NCBI GenBank assembly: GCA_007833815.1
Contig: CP033464.1
Coordinates: 4,954,001 to 5,018,000, forward strand
Direction of reading: 5' to 3'
DNA length: 64,000 bases
Source of the DNA: Brevibacillus laterosporus
Lineage (GTDB): Bacteria; Bacillota; Bacilli; Brevibacillales; Brevibacillaceae
Below are positions 6,283-9,574 of this stretch, piece after piece (the stretch's first letter is position 1; the number at the start of each line of letters is the position of its first letter). Under the pieces are notes generated by a model. The model had not been told where the DNA came from, made no database searches, and saw only the letters and a program-made list of their open reading frames with translations. The translations under genes and the position numbers were made by a program.

Positions 6283-6322
6283 AAAAAAGCAGTCTCTCGC
6301 CTGTTTTTGGGAGAACTGCTTT
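6283..6322 (-). terminator. Terminator at the left border of the accessory island
   Basis: AAAGCAGT and CTCTC pair with GGGAG and ACTGCTTT around a ten-base loop; on the minus strand the hairpin is followed by TTTTTTC. It would stop minus-strand transcription from the radical-SAM/TnpB region before spoIIGA. The bases between here and the spoIIGA promoter (about 6103-6282) hold no supported gene. Confidence 0.75.
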
Positions 6323-6395
6323 GTTATATAGTGAAACTCATATTTTAGTTTCATATTCACTGCTTATAACATAGATGATTCTAGCAAATTTATGA

Positions 6396-6764
6396 ATTAG
6401 CCGAGAACACTCGTGATTTTAATCATGAGATGAATCGGCTTCGGACAAAACGTGTCTTCTGACACGCTAATTGTCCGACTACTTCTTTGAATAACTAACA
6501 AGAACAGGTATACTAATCTTGTACAGATTGCTCATTGAAAACTGAATGTATGGGGTTGCCATAAGGAATGCTTTGTGGCGTAAAACATTCAAGCACCTTC
6601 GTCCTCTCTGACCGAAAAGCGAAAACCAAGCAGTAGGTCAGAGAGAAGAATCCAACGTACACTTTTTTTCAATAACCGTAGGGACTACGGGGATAGCCTG
6701 CTAATTCTCACTTCGTTGGATGTGATAGCGCAGGAATCTCGTGGCTTTAGCCATGAGAGGTTCA
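6396..6764 (+). mobile_element. Probable non-autonomous IS200/IS605-type element carrying only an RNA
   Basis: The two ends carry the same type of hairpin in the same orientation: CTCGTGATTTTAATCATGAG at 6410-6429 and CTCGTGGCTTTAGCCATGAG at 6738-6757, the second followed by AGGTTCAA. End hairpins on one strand with a CTTTAG-type loop are characteristic of IS200/IS605 elements. The interior has no gene but is full of stems, including CGGACAA/TTGTCCG enclosing CGTGTC/GACACG (6442-6477). An ATGA lies just left of the element at 6392-6395. The exact ends are an inference; IS605 insertion makes no target duplication to confirm them. Confidence 0.5.
6530..6764 (+). ncRNA. Omega-RNA-like structured RNA with a pseudoknot
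   Basis: Read on plus: GAATGT (6544) pairs with ACATTC (6585) around GCCATAA/TTGTGGC; CTCTCTGACC (6604) pairs with GGTCAGAGAG (6636); CCGTAG/CTACGG closes a GGA loop (6676-6690); CCTGC and TCAC (6697, 6708) pair with GTGA and GCAGG (6722, 6730); the loop of that stem, CGTTGGAT (6714-6721), is complementary to ATCCAACG (6650-6657), making a pseudoknot. It ends in the IS605 end hairpin. This is the design of TnpB or IscB guide RNAs (omega RNA, also HEARO). The family name and both ends are inferred. Confidence 0.5.
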
Positions 6765-6841
6765 ATTGCCTATAACAAAATTGTGTTGCATGAAGAGACG
6801 AGCACCAGCGTTGCCACAATCCCCCTAATAGAGATGATTCT

Positions 6842-6976
6842 GGTCAACAACTCATGACTAAAGTCACGAGCTTGTAACTACCCGATAGTACAAGCATCTT
6901 TCGACTCCTATCTTTTCTCGCTTTTACAAGCGTGGTGTTACATCAGGGCAGGTTGACATCTACCCAACAAAAGAAG
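6842..6976 (-). ncRNA. Right-end omega-RNA segment of the TnpB remnant
   Basis: Directly downstream of the tnpB-derived stop on minus come CGCTT/AAGCG (a small hairpin), CTTGTA..TACAAG (6871-6894), and finally CTCGTGACTTTAGTCATGAG (6870-6851) followed by TTGTTGAC. In tnpB elements the guide RNA spans the 3' end of the gene and the right end, finishing in such a hairpin, with the guide taken from the adjacent flank (here beginning CAGAATCATCTC). The 5' part probably overlaps the coding frame. Expression and processing are not shown. Confidence 0.45.
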
Positions 6977-7470
6977 CTATGCTCCTGTTGTTACTTCAAC
7001 GATGTACTCTATTCCTTTTCGTTGAAGATTCATGGCCCCAATACGATCATCGTTTGAGGTGTAATGGCAGGCTTTACAGCAGAATACATGTATTTTTTTG
7101 TTTCGATTGGCTTTCTTTGTATGCCCGCACTTTGGACAAGTTTGCGATGTGTATCGTGGGTCAACTGCCATCACCTTTGATCGGTGCATCAAAGCTTTGT
7201 ATTCTATCATTTGACGCAACTGATAGAATGCCCAAGATACATATTCATAACGATTTTTGACACGTACACGTTCAGTAGCATTGCGTACACCTGTCAAGTC
7301 TTCAACAACAAAGAGTGTATTTGCTCCATATTTTTCTACGAGTGCCTTACTGACAGTGTGATTAACATCTGTCATCCAACGGTTTTCTCGTTGACCGATT
7401 TTCTTCAAACGTCTACGTGAAGAAGCAGTTTGCCTCATTTGTAGTTGCTTACGTAAATGTTTATACTTCG
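6842..7470 (-). mobile_element. Remnant of an IS200/IS605 (IS1341-type) tnpB element, left half deleted
   Basis: The C-terminal half of a tnpB gene (7470 to 6977) is followed by a right end with the family hairpin at 6870-6851. The tnpB start, the first RuvC motif and the left end are missing; in their place the frame runs straight out of a radical-SAM gene. No tnpA is present. The remnant points toward the RNA-only element on plus, so two right ends face each other across 6758-6850. Confidence 0.65.
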
Positions 7471-8245
7471 CTCGCAGAGCAATTTTGAATCCACGTGTTA
7501 GTGCCAAGTCGATGTTACTGACTATCTTGTCAAAAGTTCCTTGACCACCAGCTGTGACTCGTCGTTGATCATGAATATGTTTTGGTCCATCAATAGAGAT
7601 CTGAAAAAAATCCCACATTGATTTATATTGTTCAAAAAAATCTAGAAACTCATGTAAGAAAGTACCGTTTGTAATCGCGTAAGAACGAAAACCGTATTCT
7701 TCTATGCCGCGACGTACTACTTCATGCACCGTCTTCTTTGAAGTAGGAAGTAGCGGTTCCCCACCATATAGAAGCATGGTGTGCTGGGCATTCTGGAACC
7801 GGCCTCTCGCTTTTTCAGTCTCCAGAATACGATCAATCGCAAAAAACATGTTGTCCATTTCTTCCTGTGAAAGCGAATGATTGATTTTATGAATATCATG
7901 TCCTTGAAAGCAATAGGGACAGCGTAGGTTACACATGTACGTTGTGCAAACACTAAATACGACACCCAGTGAAGAAGCTTGTAACTGAGCATTCATTTCA
8001 TCTCTAAGCTTAATCAGCTTCTCCCACTCTTGTTCCCTACTTTCAAAGAGGTATCCGCGCTTGAACAAGTAAGATAATAGATTGTCTAGTTCAGCATTTG
8101 AATCGCATTGTGTTTTTGATTTTATCTGATCTAGAACTTTTTTTACATCCGGTTCAATCGTGTCAATCGCTCCGCTTAAAGAGTTGACGATAACATAGCT
8201 TCCGTTTGAAAGCTTATGAAATGAGTTGTACGTACTGAAAAACAT
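6977..8245 (-). CDS. Hybrid frame: radical-SAM peptide-maturase N-terminus fused to TnpB C-terminus
   Basis: With the start at the ATG of MFFSTYNSFHK (GAGGGAGTGG upstream), about the first 258 residues are a radical-SAM protein: cluster motif CNLRCPYC near residues 109-112, GGEPLLP and ISIDGPKHIHDQRR. At RAKYKHLRKQLQ (about residue 259) the sequence turns, in frame, into TnpB: ENRWMTDVNHTVSKALVE, the RuvC-II stretch FVVEDLTGV, DPRYTSQTCPKCGHT with a second cysteine pair CCKAC (zinc ribbon), and the RuvC-III stretch SNDDRIGAMNL. The SPASM half of the maturase and the RuvC-I half of TnpB are absent, so neither activity is expected to be complete. Probably a deletion product. Confidence 0.85.
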   Translation of the reverse strand: MFFSTYNSFHKLSNGSYVIVNSLSGAIDTIEPDVKKVLDQIKSKTQCDSNAELDNLLSYLFKRGYLFESREQEWEKLIKLRDEMNAQLQASSLGVVFSVCTTYMCNLRCPYCFQGHDIHKINHSLSQEEMDNMFFAIDRILETEKARGRFQNAQHTMLLYGGEPLLPTSKKTVHEVVRRGIEEYGFRSYAITNGTFLHEFLDFFEQYKSMWDFFQISIDGPKHIHDQRRVTAGGQGTFDKIVSNIDLALTRGFKIALRAKYKHLRKQLQMRQTASSRRRLKKIGQRENRWMTDVNHTVSKALVEKYGANTLFVVEDLTGVRNATERVRVKNRYEYVSWAFYQLRQMIEYKALMHRSKVMAVDPRYTSQTCPKCGHTKKANRNKKIHVFCCKACHYTSNDDRIGAMNLQRKGIEYIVEVTTGA

Positions 8246-8293
8246 GCTTACCACTCCCTCTTTACCCAAAGAATTTCTCACTTATTCTTATGA

Positions 8294-9574
8294 TTAAATG
8301 GTGGTGAGTTCTTTTCGAATGGAATCGAGATATGAAAGAACTTGTTCCCCTGCATGCGTACAATGCGGTTGATCTAAATTTCCATACACCACCAATGCTT
8401 CCGCGGCACACCCTCCACCACATATTGGTGCAGATGAACAACTGCGACATTGTGGAATAGTAAGAGAATTGAATGATTTCCACTTATCCCACTTCCATTC
8501 TTTAAGAAGAAAATCAGGGTAATAATCACCAATCTTATATTCGGCTCGTCCAATCAAATCTGCACAAGCATATATATGATTATCAGGGCCAAAAGTAATT
8601 TTTCTACCCTGCACTGATTCACAAAATACGATGTTTGGAAGAAATGGGATTGCTTTTCTTTGCAATTCGGGATCTAGCTGCGATACAGAATAAATGTATC
8701 GATACATATCAGAGCCAACTATTATCTTCTGCTGATTTTCCAATTCCTCCAGATTTGAAATATCTCGACGCAATTGTTTCAGAATCTCAATTCCTTGCAT
8801 GAGGTTATCACCTGTACTTTGGCACGTATGATCGGTTACAGGAGCAAAATGTATCTTAAAACCTTCTCTGCCTAATATCTCATTTTCTTTGTAATGCTCT
8901 ATCAGAGTGGAAACGGTATTTATGTTTGTCTTGTCAATGTTGACACGCACTGTTATTGATATTCCCCGATTAAGTACATCAACAATGCTATTATCAATTT
9001 TTTTAAACGTACCTTTTCCTCCCACAAGGATTCGCCTTTGATCATGAATATGTTCTGGACCATCTATTGTGATCGTCAAGTTGAGTCGATCCTTATAGTT
9101 TTCCAAGAGGTCTACAAAAGTTGGTAGATGATACCCGTTTGTGTTACAACCTATTTCAAAATCTAGTTCAACAGCTTTTTCACAAATTTTTTGCACGATT
9201 TTGTGTGTAAATGGTAATAATGGTTCGCCACCAAATAGGTTAATCATTCCTTTTTTCAAACCACTCTCTTGGTGAAAAAAATCAATGGCTTTCCATATCT
9301 CATTGGGTTGTTCATCCGTTAAAAGAGACATTTTCTCGTGGATTTCATGGCTTTCAAAACAGTAAGGACAACGAAAATTGCAAGTATAAGTCGGGCAAAT
9401 CACATACTGCATGACTTGTGTTTTTCTAGCAAACACCATCGCTTGCTTTAGAAGCTCTTCCTCTTCAGCTTCTGAATTGTACACATATCCTCGTTTTATA
9501 AGATGGGAAACAACTTCCATCTGTTCTTCTGTAAATTCATGTTCTTGCATATGGGGAAGATGGTGCACTTTCAA
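8294..9574 (-). CDS. Radical-SAM/SPASM peptide maturase, probably truncated at the 5' end
   Basis: A 426-residue protein with the radical-SAM cluster motif CNFRCPYC (Cys 65, 69, 72), GGEPLLPF, TIDGPEHIHDQRR and a C-terminal SPASM region with many cysteines (CESVQGRK, IYACADLIG, CRSCSSAPICGGGCAAEA, PHC) that bind auxiliary iron-sulfur clusters. Such enzymes modify ribosomal peptides. Compared with its neighbour, about 45 N-terminal residues are missing: the frame opens at a TTG without a ribosome-binding site, about 30 bases beyond the ftsZ terminator. No precursor-peptide gene, transporter or protease is nearby. It may be a pseudogene. Confidence 0.8.
   Translation of the reverse strand: MKVHHLPHMQEHEFTEEQMEVVSHLIKRGYVYNSEAEEEELLKQAMVFARKTQVMQYVICPTYTCNFRCPYCFESHEIHEKMSLLTDEQPNEIWKAIDFFHQESGLKKGMINLFGGEPLLPFTHKIVQKICEKAVELDFEIGCNTNGYHLPTFVDLLENYKDRLNLTITIDGPEHIHDQRRILVGGKGTFKKIDNSIVDVLNRGISITVRVNIDKTNINTVSTLIEHYKENEILGREGFKIHFAPVTDHTCQSTGDNLMQGIEILKQLRRDISNLEELENQQKIIVGSDMYRYIYSVSQLDPELQRKAIPFLPNIVFCESVQGRKITFGPDNHIYACADLIGRAEYKIGDYYPDFLLKEWKWDKWKSFNSLTIPQCRSCSSAPICGGGCAAEALVVYGNLDQPHCTHAGEQVLSYLDSIRKELTTI

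Follow-up and report, generated by a model that had tools for sequence, protein, structure and literature searches.

The window analysed here – a stretch of 64,000 nucleotides of Brevibacillus laterosporus DNA, lying within a 5.56-Mb contig of a 5.76-Mb genome – contains, at positions 6389–6765 of the forward strand, a 377-bp IS605-type element that appears to consist of RNA-specifying sequence and mobile ends; no gene was found within it. One of its neighbour genes is spoIIGA. On the reverse strand, at 6977–8281, lies a 434-aa frame in which a radical-SAM domain (aa 113–266) is in frame with a TnpB zinc domain (aa 352–419), apparently a radical-SAM gene truncated by the remnant of another TnpB type; a second radical-SAM gene is found at 8294–9574, also on the reverse strand. 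The right ends of this TnpB remnant (CTCGTGACTTTAGTCATGAGTTGTTGAC, 6843–6870, reverse strand) and of the 377-bp element point towards each other and are 77 nt apart.

The edges of the element were set by aligning its full-length copies. A search of the genome with 6380–6800 as query returned 42 matches, 16 of them full length and 97.6–100% identical to the window copy, with flanks unrelated to one another. All 16 start with TTTATGRATTAGCC and end with GAGAGGTTCAA – that is, with TTTAT and GGTTCAA, respectively – and because the same edges recur between different flanks, the element can be delimited to 6389–6765; a 17th copy in the same genome lacks the left end. An earlier note on this DNA, made from its letters, had placed the element at 6396–6764 with a guide directly after it. 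The position of the guide just beyond the right end holds, whereas the edges shift slightly: as the element ends at 6765, the presumed guide would begin at 6766 (TTGCCTATAAC..), and the first 16 nt of host flank that would serve as guide, placed by their position beside the RNA scaffold described below, occupy 6766–6781 and differ in each of the 16 copies. The TTTAT at 6389–6393, the target site and presumed TnpB TAM, is found on the left side only in all 16 full-length copies, and also marks the left edge of two tnpB-bearing elements, L022 and L023.

The absence of a gene, claimed in the earlier note, was borne out. A coding remnant was considered and rejected: the forward frames contain stops, and a run of about 60 open codons, which one frame has at the 3′ end, shows by eye no TnpB C-terminus. 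Across the joined flanks, open reading frames of more than 100 aa occur in 1 of the 16 copies. The strong stems listed by the same note are reflected in the minimum-free-energy (MFE) fold of 6389–6790, which reaches −133.4 kcal/mol (z −7.3, a value equalled by none of 100 shuffles), and its IS605-type hairpins, in the same orientation, do lie near both ends (6410–6429 and 6738–6757).

The left hairpin, CTCGTGATTTTAATCATGAG, is the inner part of a left-end structure at 6399–6440, and a second left-end hairpin, CGGACAA..TTGTCCG, at 6442–6477, is paired in the MFE fold. The left-end structure falls inside a 91-bp stretch sharing 94% identity with the left end of L022, an autonomous 1797-bp IS605-type element at a TTTAT site in the same genome, and the right ends of the two are 94% identical over 34 bp. 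L022 carries full-length tnpA (143 aa, Y1_Tnp) and tnpB (370 aa, OrfB_IS605 with a TNB zinc domain). The two elements share, besides their ends and target site, the layout of the scaffold; they differ in that L022 has about 1.6 kb of tnpA and tnpB where the RNA-only element has about 190 bp of leader and a hairpin termed P3, and in the inner hairpin of the scaffold. A second copy of the L022-type element retains a full-length tnpB next to a broken tnpA, and the genome as a whole yields 12 TnpB zinc-domain matches and 8 TnpA matches. The RNA-only element is presumably mobilised by TnpA in trans.

The last 93 nt of the element (6673–6765) are, on the evidence of homology and covariation, a TnpB-type omega-RNA scaffold. 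They share 88% identity with the 3′ end of L084, a tnpB element from a genome of another family, and in an alignment of 29 sequences (8 tnpB-linked, 21 not) double changes were found in 17 of the 22 predicted pairs. The scaffold comprises a stem-1-like hairpin (6676–6690), a closing helix CCTGC/GCAGG around the hairpin 6708–6725 (6697–6734 overall; 100% and 88.8% of cells paired, with double changes, and the same in tnpB-linked copies) and the right-end hairpin (6738–6757), whose UUUA tetraloop lies at 6746–6749. Upstream of it, the hairpin P3 (6604–6645, strands 6604–6613/6636–6645) holds the conserved GCGAAAACCAAGC in its loop and shows double changes in 5 of 10 pairs. Counted together, the six helices other than a pseudoknot proposed in the earlier note pair in 89.7% of cells compared with 74.2% in shuffles, and contain 98 double-change cells against 33.4 in shuffles (0 of 500 shuffles); for P3 alone, where the alignment is imperfect, 63.6% of cells are paired.

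The proposed pseudoknot itself, between ATCCAACG (6650–6657) and CGTTGGAT (6714–6721), fared less well. The complementarity exists but has little comparative backing: across 16 diverged elements 57.9% of cells pair, compared with 60.3% in shuffles, and one of eight pairs is doubly changed; the pairing does exceed that of slid versions (20.6–42.1%), as is usual for a structure taken from one aligned sequence. Being no better than shuffles, it was set aside. In several members the conserved GCGAAAACCAAGCAGUAGG could instead pair over a long range with the 3′ module, but this alternative is confounded by a helix already present. A different pseudoknot, of the type found in ISDra2, is supported by the alignment: the loop GGA of the stem-1-like hairpin (6682–6684) would pair with UUC at 6761–6763, and these positions pair in 95.4% of cells, compared with 89.2% in shuffles and 6.9–58.6% in slid versions, the best of all slides. 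Its 3 double-change cells, in 3 of the 29 sequences, possibly stem from one event, and the single doubly changed pair was equalled in 142 of 500 shuffles. The first-hairpin loop, GGA or GAA, faces UUC, and ends reading GUC go with the loop GGC; in 4 of the 29 sequences, those with GGTGC loops, one of the three pairs is broken.

Counted back from the guide, the UUUA tetraloop occupies −20 to −17 and UUCAA −5 to −1. In ISDra2, the UUUA tetraloop has the same numbering, and −5U to −3C, flanked by −6G and −2A, pair with −105G to −103A (PMC10097598). The GUUCAA of the element fits −6G, −5U, −3C and −2A, and its pseudoknot would similarly join −5 to −3 to an upstream G-to-A stretch; the origin of the guide from the right flank, presumed here, is also shared (PMC8612924). 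Thus a right-end hairpin with a UUUA-type loop, a guide-proximal UUC, a loop-to-end pseudoknot and homology to tnpB 3′-end RNA were all found, and overlap with the 3′ end of a tnpB of its own was not: the ISDra2 omega-RNA overlaps the 3′ end of tnpB (PMC10097598), whereas the 377-bp element has a separate promoter and leader and no tnpB. With no tnpB in the element or – with one exception, on the opposite strand – near 59 relatives, the omega-RNA can be called stand-alone.

At gathering thresholds, Rfam gave no match in the whole window, and thus neither HEARO nor RAGATH-18 on the element. At E values up to 5, the single match in 6300–7000 was a sub-threshold one to Ref70 (Enterococcus sRNA 70, RF02841; 6670–6774, forward strand; E 0.019, 26.8 bits against a 115-bit threshold); Ref70 may itself be a TnpB omega-RNA of Enterococcus. 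The earlier note had left room for a guide-RNA element of the HEARO/IscB type, and the IS605-type ends and structured RNA would suit one, but HEARO (RF02033) gave no match in 6300–7000 even with E values as high as 5, there is no space for a 5′ guide beside the promoter and leader, and the scaffold is of the TnpB type with the guide on its 3′ side, which makes this reading extremely unlikely. A known parallel is the reRNA of IS607 elements derived from RAGATH-18, likewise a conserved structured guide of TnpB: 64% of RAGATH-18 RNAs adjoin IS607 TnpBs (PMC11061315). That RNA nonetheless belongs to a different transposon family, and no leader of the present kind is described in the available part of that report (PMC11061315).

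Where tnpB would be located, the element carries a leader composed, in this order, of a sigma-70-like promoter, a boxA-like sequence and a covarying two-helix domain. The promoter-like sequence TTGAAT-16-TATACT (6487–6514) has 9 of 12 matches; such sites number 2 in the region compared with 1.4 in shuffles and are not significant alone. At the equivalent place in the family, within 32 nt upstream of the leader domain, a −10 hexamer with at least 5 of 6 matches is present in 40 of 54 members, with 15.2 expected. The boxA-like TGCTCATTGAAAACT (6529–6543), at the presumed 5′ end of the transcript, is followed by the leader domain (6543–6591), in which the helix P1 (6543–6549/6585–6591) encloses the hairpin P2 (6558–6565/6572–6579). 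An alignment of 48 sequences, on which the leader model R1 draws, supports 15 pairs in this domain, 10 of them with double changes. Mismatched pairs read on the forward strand are far more often G.T than A.C (124 against 3, 60 against 17 and 57 against 9 in three alignments), which points to an RNA from that strand, even if structures predicted for the forward strand lean that way anyway.

The exact TGYTCWTTGAAAACT, contained in the boxA-like sequence, has 10 matches in the genome: 9 within these elements and 1 just upstream of what is presumably the start of a 23S rRNA; a reversed-pattern control gave 1. A match to the host rRNA boxA is thus found near the 5′ end of the predicted transcript in this genome. 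The BoxA of rRNA is bound by Nus factors, which play a part in antitermination and in the folding of the RNA (PMC5725501), and it is on this ground that we propose their recruitment by the leader. A core with at least 10 of 12 matches is present in 15 of 16 loci from Bacilli, which were found by BLAST rather than by pattern. Since 6 of 18 distant census genomes reach this level, boxA is not universal in the family. A host rrn boxA was comparable in 2 of the 15 named genomes asked, being near in Bacillus niameyensis and less near in a Bacillota MAG. The sequence might instead resemble rRNA boxA by convergence, the domain binding some other protein or being processed by a host RNase. In favour of this reading, which concerns the leader alone and is compatible with the overall explanation preferred below, the core falls below 10 of 12 in 12 of the 18 distant genomes while P1/P2 persists; the near-constancy of the core in Bacilli and the location of its sole non-element match beside rRNA speak for a true boxA, and we regard convergence as somewhat unlikely.

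No Rfam 15 family for the leader was matched in the window or in 18 other loci scanned. The idea of an intron was rejected, as no intron family matched an element in the 18 loci, the lone group II match (in L164) lying about 4.8 kb from the leader. In four relatives from Virgibacillus, Symbiobacteriaceae and Butyrivibrio (L129, L142, L160 and L113), the conserved AACCAAG motif – in Virgibacillus of the form GCGAAAACCAAGC – is inside the P2 hairpin and not in P3, and hence shifts between helices.

Relatives with the same RNA start module are, as sequence comparison indicates, present in many Gram-positive bacteria. BLAST found relatives in 58 of 399 genomes of the class, many of them through short end matches only. 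A pattern scan of named genomes gave at least 119 stretches, some of which are not real; 80 were read and all 119 were scored with the model. As the pattern fixes TTGAAAACT, A, TAT and GGTTG, the constancy of these letters in pattern-found loci reflects selection, most of the covarying positions being elsewhere. The R1 model matches 19 of 398 sampled genomes of the phylum, that of the window included, in a census with stricter filters in which weak matches are lost. Pattern-found loci titled Synergistaceae, Fretibacterium and the cyanobacterium Hydrocoleum are matched as well; the leader-domain match in Hydrocoleum sp. (L123), outside Firmicutes, has an E value of 1e-9, and no TnpB-like ORF was seen in the sequence nearby.

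In the loci examined, the leader occurs only in elements without tnpB. Among 59 loci drawn from 137 leader matches, some of which end within 2.5 kb, 58 have no TnpB-like ORF up to 2.5 kb to either side, as judged with a TnpB profile that was built from loci of this analysis and that distant TnpBs may escape; the 59th has one TnpB-like ORF on the opposite strand. Conversely, R1 matched nothing in a first set of TnpB loci except L097, a separate leader element beside a TnpB fragment, and had 0 matches in 34 further TnpB/TnpA loci, which span about 1.5 kb on each side of the zinc domain, a range that a far-upstream leader would exceed.

The leader is found joined to tails that resemble those of tnpB elements. 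Among 60 leader-element tails, 32 resemble one or more of 19 tnpB-linked ends, in several cases through the right end alone. The TnpBs to which these ends belong clearly differ, examples being the TnpBs of L084/L079 and those of L241–L244 (about 28% identical to the L022 protein where aligned); a third TnpB type, L246/L247, matches leader tails by the right end only. The best match of an RNA-only tail is the tail of the resident TnpB in 7 of 19 testable cases, from 6 genomes, compared with 0.56 expected and a maximum of 4 in 2000 label shuffles, the TnpB tails tested being one per genome and four for the genome of the window; in the other 12 a non-resident tail matched better. The tail of the window element itself is closer to a TnpB element of another family (88%) than to the four resident tails tested, and 14 of 37 RNA-only tails matched no TnpB tail tested. 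In L277 and L286, the element is 91–98% identical to the resident TnpB element both at its left end (over 53 and 65 nt) and across its final 165–175 nt, the junction lying about 30–40 nt inside tnpB; only the interior differs. In several genomes, then, and for two distant clades, the leader is by sequence joined to the omega-RNA end of the resident TnpB.

Of 41 leader-positive genomes, 39 have a TnpB match (in two of them below the family cut-off), compared with 7 of 20 leader-negative ones (Fisher p 9e-7); for TnpA matches, the counts are 34 of 41 and 9 of 20, respectively; the leader-negative genomes are those listed and not a random sample, and the leader-positive set includes 13 of the 15 named genomes, G410 and G415 having been left out. 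A Synergistaceae MAG (G404) gave neither a TnpB nor a TnpA match. In the draft genome of Virgibacillus chiguensis (G406), no PF07282 (TnpB) match was found among its sequences, which hold at least 8 copies of the element – 99–100% identical in three compared pairs – and 16 TnpA matches. The element can thus possibly spread without a present TnpB, which fits TnpA alone.

This last case favours the reading of the element as an ordinary PATE, moved in trans by TnpA, in which the folds matter as single-stranded DNA only and the omega-RNA part is a passive right-end remnant. Like the element – which is too short for a transposase, carries near-terminal palindromes and lacks a target duplication – PATEs are protein-less, have near-terminal IS605-type palindromes without inverted terminal repeats and are presumably moved in trans; one is known in which 28 nt from the left end are combined with the final 58 nt of tnpB and the right end (PMC3119063, PMC7290912). 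In the parts of these sources at hand, however, PATEs are described as core-deleted or ends-only (PMC3119063, PMC7290912), whereas the core of the present element forms a conserved RNA gene, made up of promoter-like sequence, boxA-like leader and omega-RNA. The suggestion of the earlier note that such a unit may have lost its nuclease is, in this respect, incomplete, the interior being more than a deletion. Against the PATE reading, the promoter and leader are correctly ordered and oriented, and G.T exceeds A.C on the forward strand. TnpA requires only the ends of an element, but the interior is conserved and covarying, and L071, whose left-end match is down to 16 nt, keeps the core at 79%. 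We therefore consider the PATE reading unlikely.

A further alternative accepts that the RNA is made but sees in it mainly a decoy or regulator, the scaffold occupying TnpB and lowering the activity of autonomous elements, or the leader regulating neighbours, with the guide incidental. The ratio of 16 full-length RNA-only elements to 2 full-length L022-type tnpB genes in the genome would suit such a role, and even an RNA whose guide is mismatched would keep TnpB occupied. Conservation of the guide-proximal letters, and of the pseudoknot that involves −5 to −3, speaks against it, however, and we hold this to be very unlikely.

We consider it probable that the element acts as a mobile guide-RNA gene transcribed from its own promoter, with TnpA moving it and TnpB using its RNA in trans, its transcription and loading being what we infer from the features above. 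This agrees in its core with the earlier note, which had proposed an RNA-only IS605-type unit with an omega-RNA, reliant on proteins encoded elsewhere: the copies, the shared ends and the covarying scaffold support it, and of the details the missing gene, the stems and the end hairpins stood, the exact edges and the named pseudoknot did not. That note had also named what would count against it – stems without covariation or with uncompensated breaks in homologues, or no other copies in related genomes – and the helices do covary, and copies and relatives are many.

On the preferred reading of a trans-acting guide-RNA gene, RNA polymerase would start near 6521, transcribe the leader and scaffold and continue beyond the right end, the first ~16 nt of host DNA thereby supplying the guide. 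After probable trimming on the 5′ side, the RNA would be loaded on a TnpB from another element. TnpB can trim its own mRNA into omega-RNA in vitro (PMC10278001), and the leader would take over the role that the tnpB mRNA has in autonomous elements. As cleavage by ISDra2 TnpB does not depend on the RNA that precedes the scaffold on the 5′ side (PMC10097598), the leader should serve synthesis, folding or trimming, and not cutting; its boxA would most likely recruit Nus factors so that an untranslated, structured RNA gets finished and folded. TnpA excises IS605-type elements strand-specifically, and a proposed role of TnpB is to bring them back through a cut at the empty site (PMC8612924); here, TnpA would peel the element off, TnpB would cut the emptied site (TTTAT plus guide) and repair would copy the element back. 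More than once, the same leader would have become attached to omega-RNA ends from different TnpB clades.

More tentatively, and with somewhat less than even confidence, these elements may form an unnamed class of mobile RNA genes, in which one leader module (promoter, boxA and P1/P2) launches guide RNAs and has been recombined onto the omega-RNA ends of host TnpBs in Bacilli, Clostridia and Synergistota. Each insertion would give a new flank guide, and the few TnpB copies would be supplied with a growing, dispersed set – a genome-wide trans counterpart of a CRISPR array, kept selfishly by homing.

PATEs and omega-RNAs are already known, and among PATEs there is one in which 58 nt of tnpB remain together with the right end (PMC7290912). 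As far as our searches show, what is new is a family-wide leader with a promoter and boxA that makes protein-less IS605 elements RNA genes; no RNA-only TnpB guide element with its own leader was found in the open-licence literature searched. Stand-alone omega-RNAs have reportedly been seen with IscB elements, and in non-autonomous IS605 elements of Geobacillus copies of the guide RNA are said to lie apart from the nuclease gene; neither is known to have a dedicated promoter–boxA leader family common to several TnpB clades. The elements would represent a guide RNA split from its nuclease gene in nature, and suggest how a free guide-RNA gene may originate, from a promoter-bearing leader and a TnpB scaffold. 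Stand-alone tracrRNA genes and CRISPR RNAs have been proposed to stem from a split omega-RNA ancestor (PMC10097598), and the present elements would be a living group with a related separation of guide from nuclease. The reading predicts trans-homing and guide-RNA parasitism on TnpB, and would provide natural expression leaders and scaffolds.

Copies are also found on mobile DNA. In a plasmid collection 385 records matched; among the 20 listed, one is near-identical (97%, on a plasmid of Brevibacillus halotolerans), one, from Bacillus arachidis, is a relative with 71% identity and 18 are left-end matches from Enterococcus. Two records of a phage collection show a left-end match only. A pattern scan of IMG/VR gave 6 stretches with 4 leader matches, one of these weak (E 0.0027); two contigs, 2911860687_000004 (L330) and 2911860687_000002 (L332), hold leader copies very near that of the window, and prophage-like regions of this kind may spread the element. 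Finally, at another site of the B. laterosporus genome (L021 1344–2629; G000:C4:3183843-3185128), a diverged leader element is lined up with an opposite-strand 288-aa ORF – methyltransferase-like by eye – and another solitary right end, possibly as cargo between IS605-type ends or through chance nesting.
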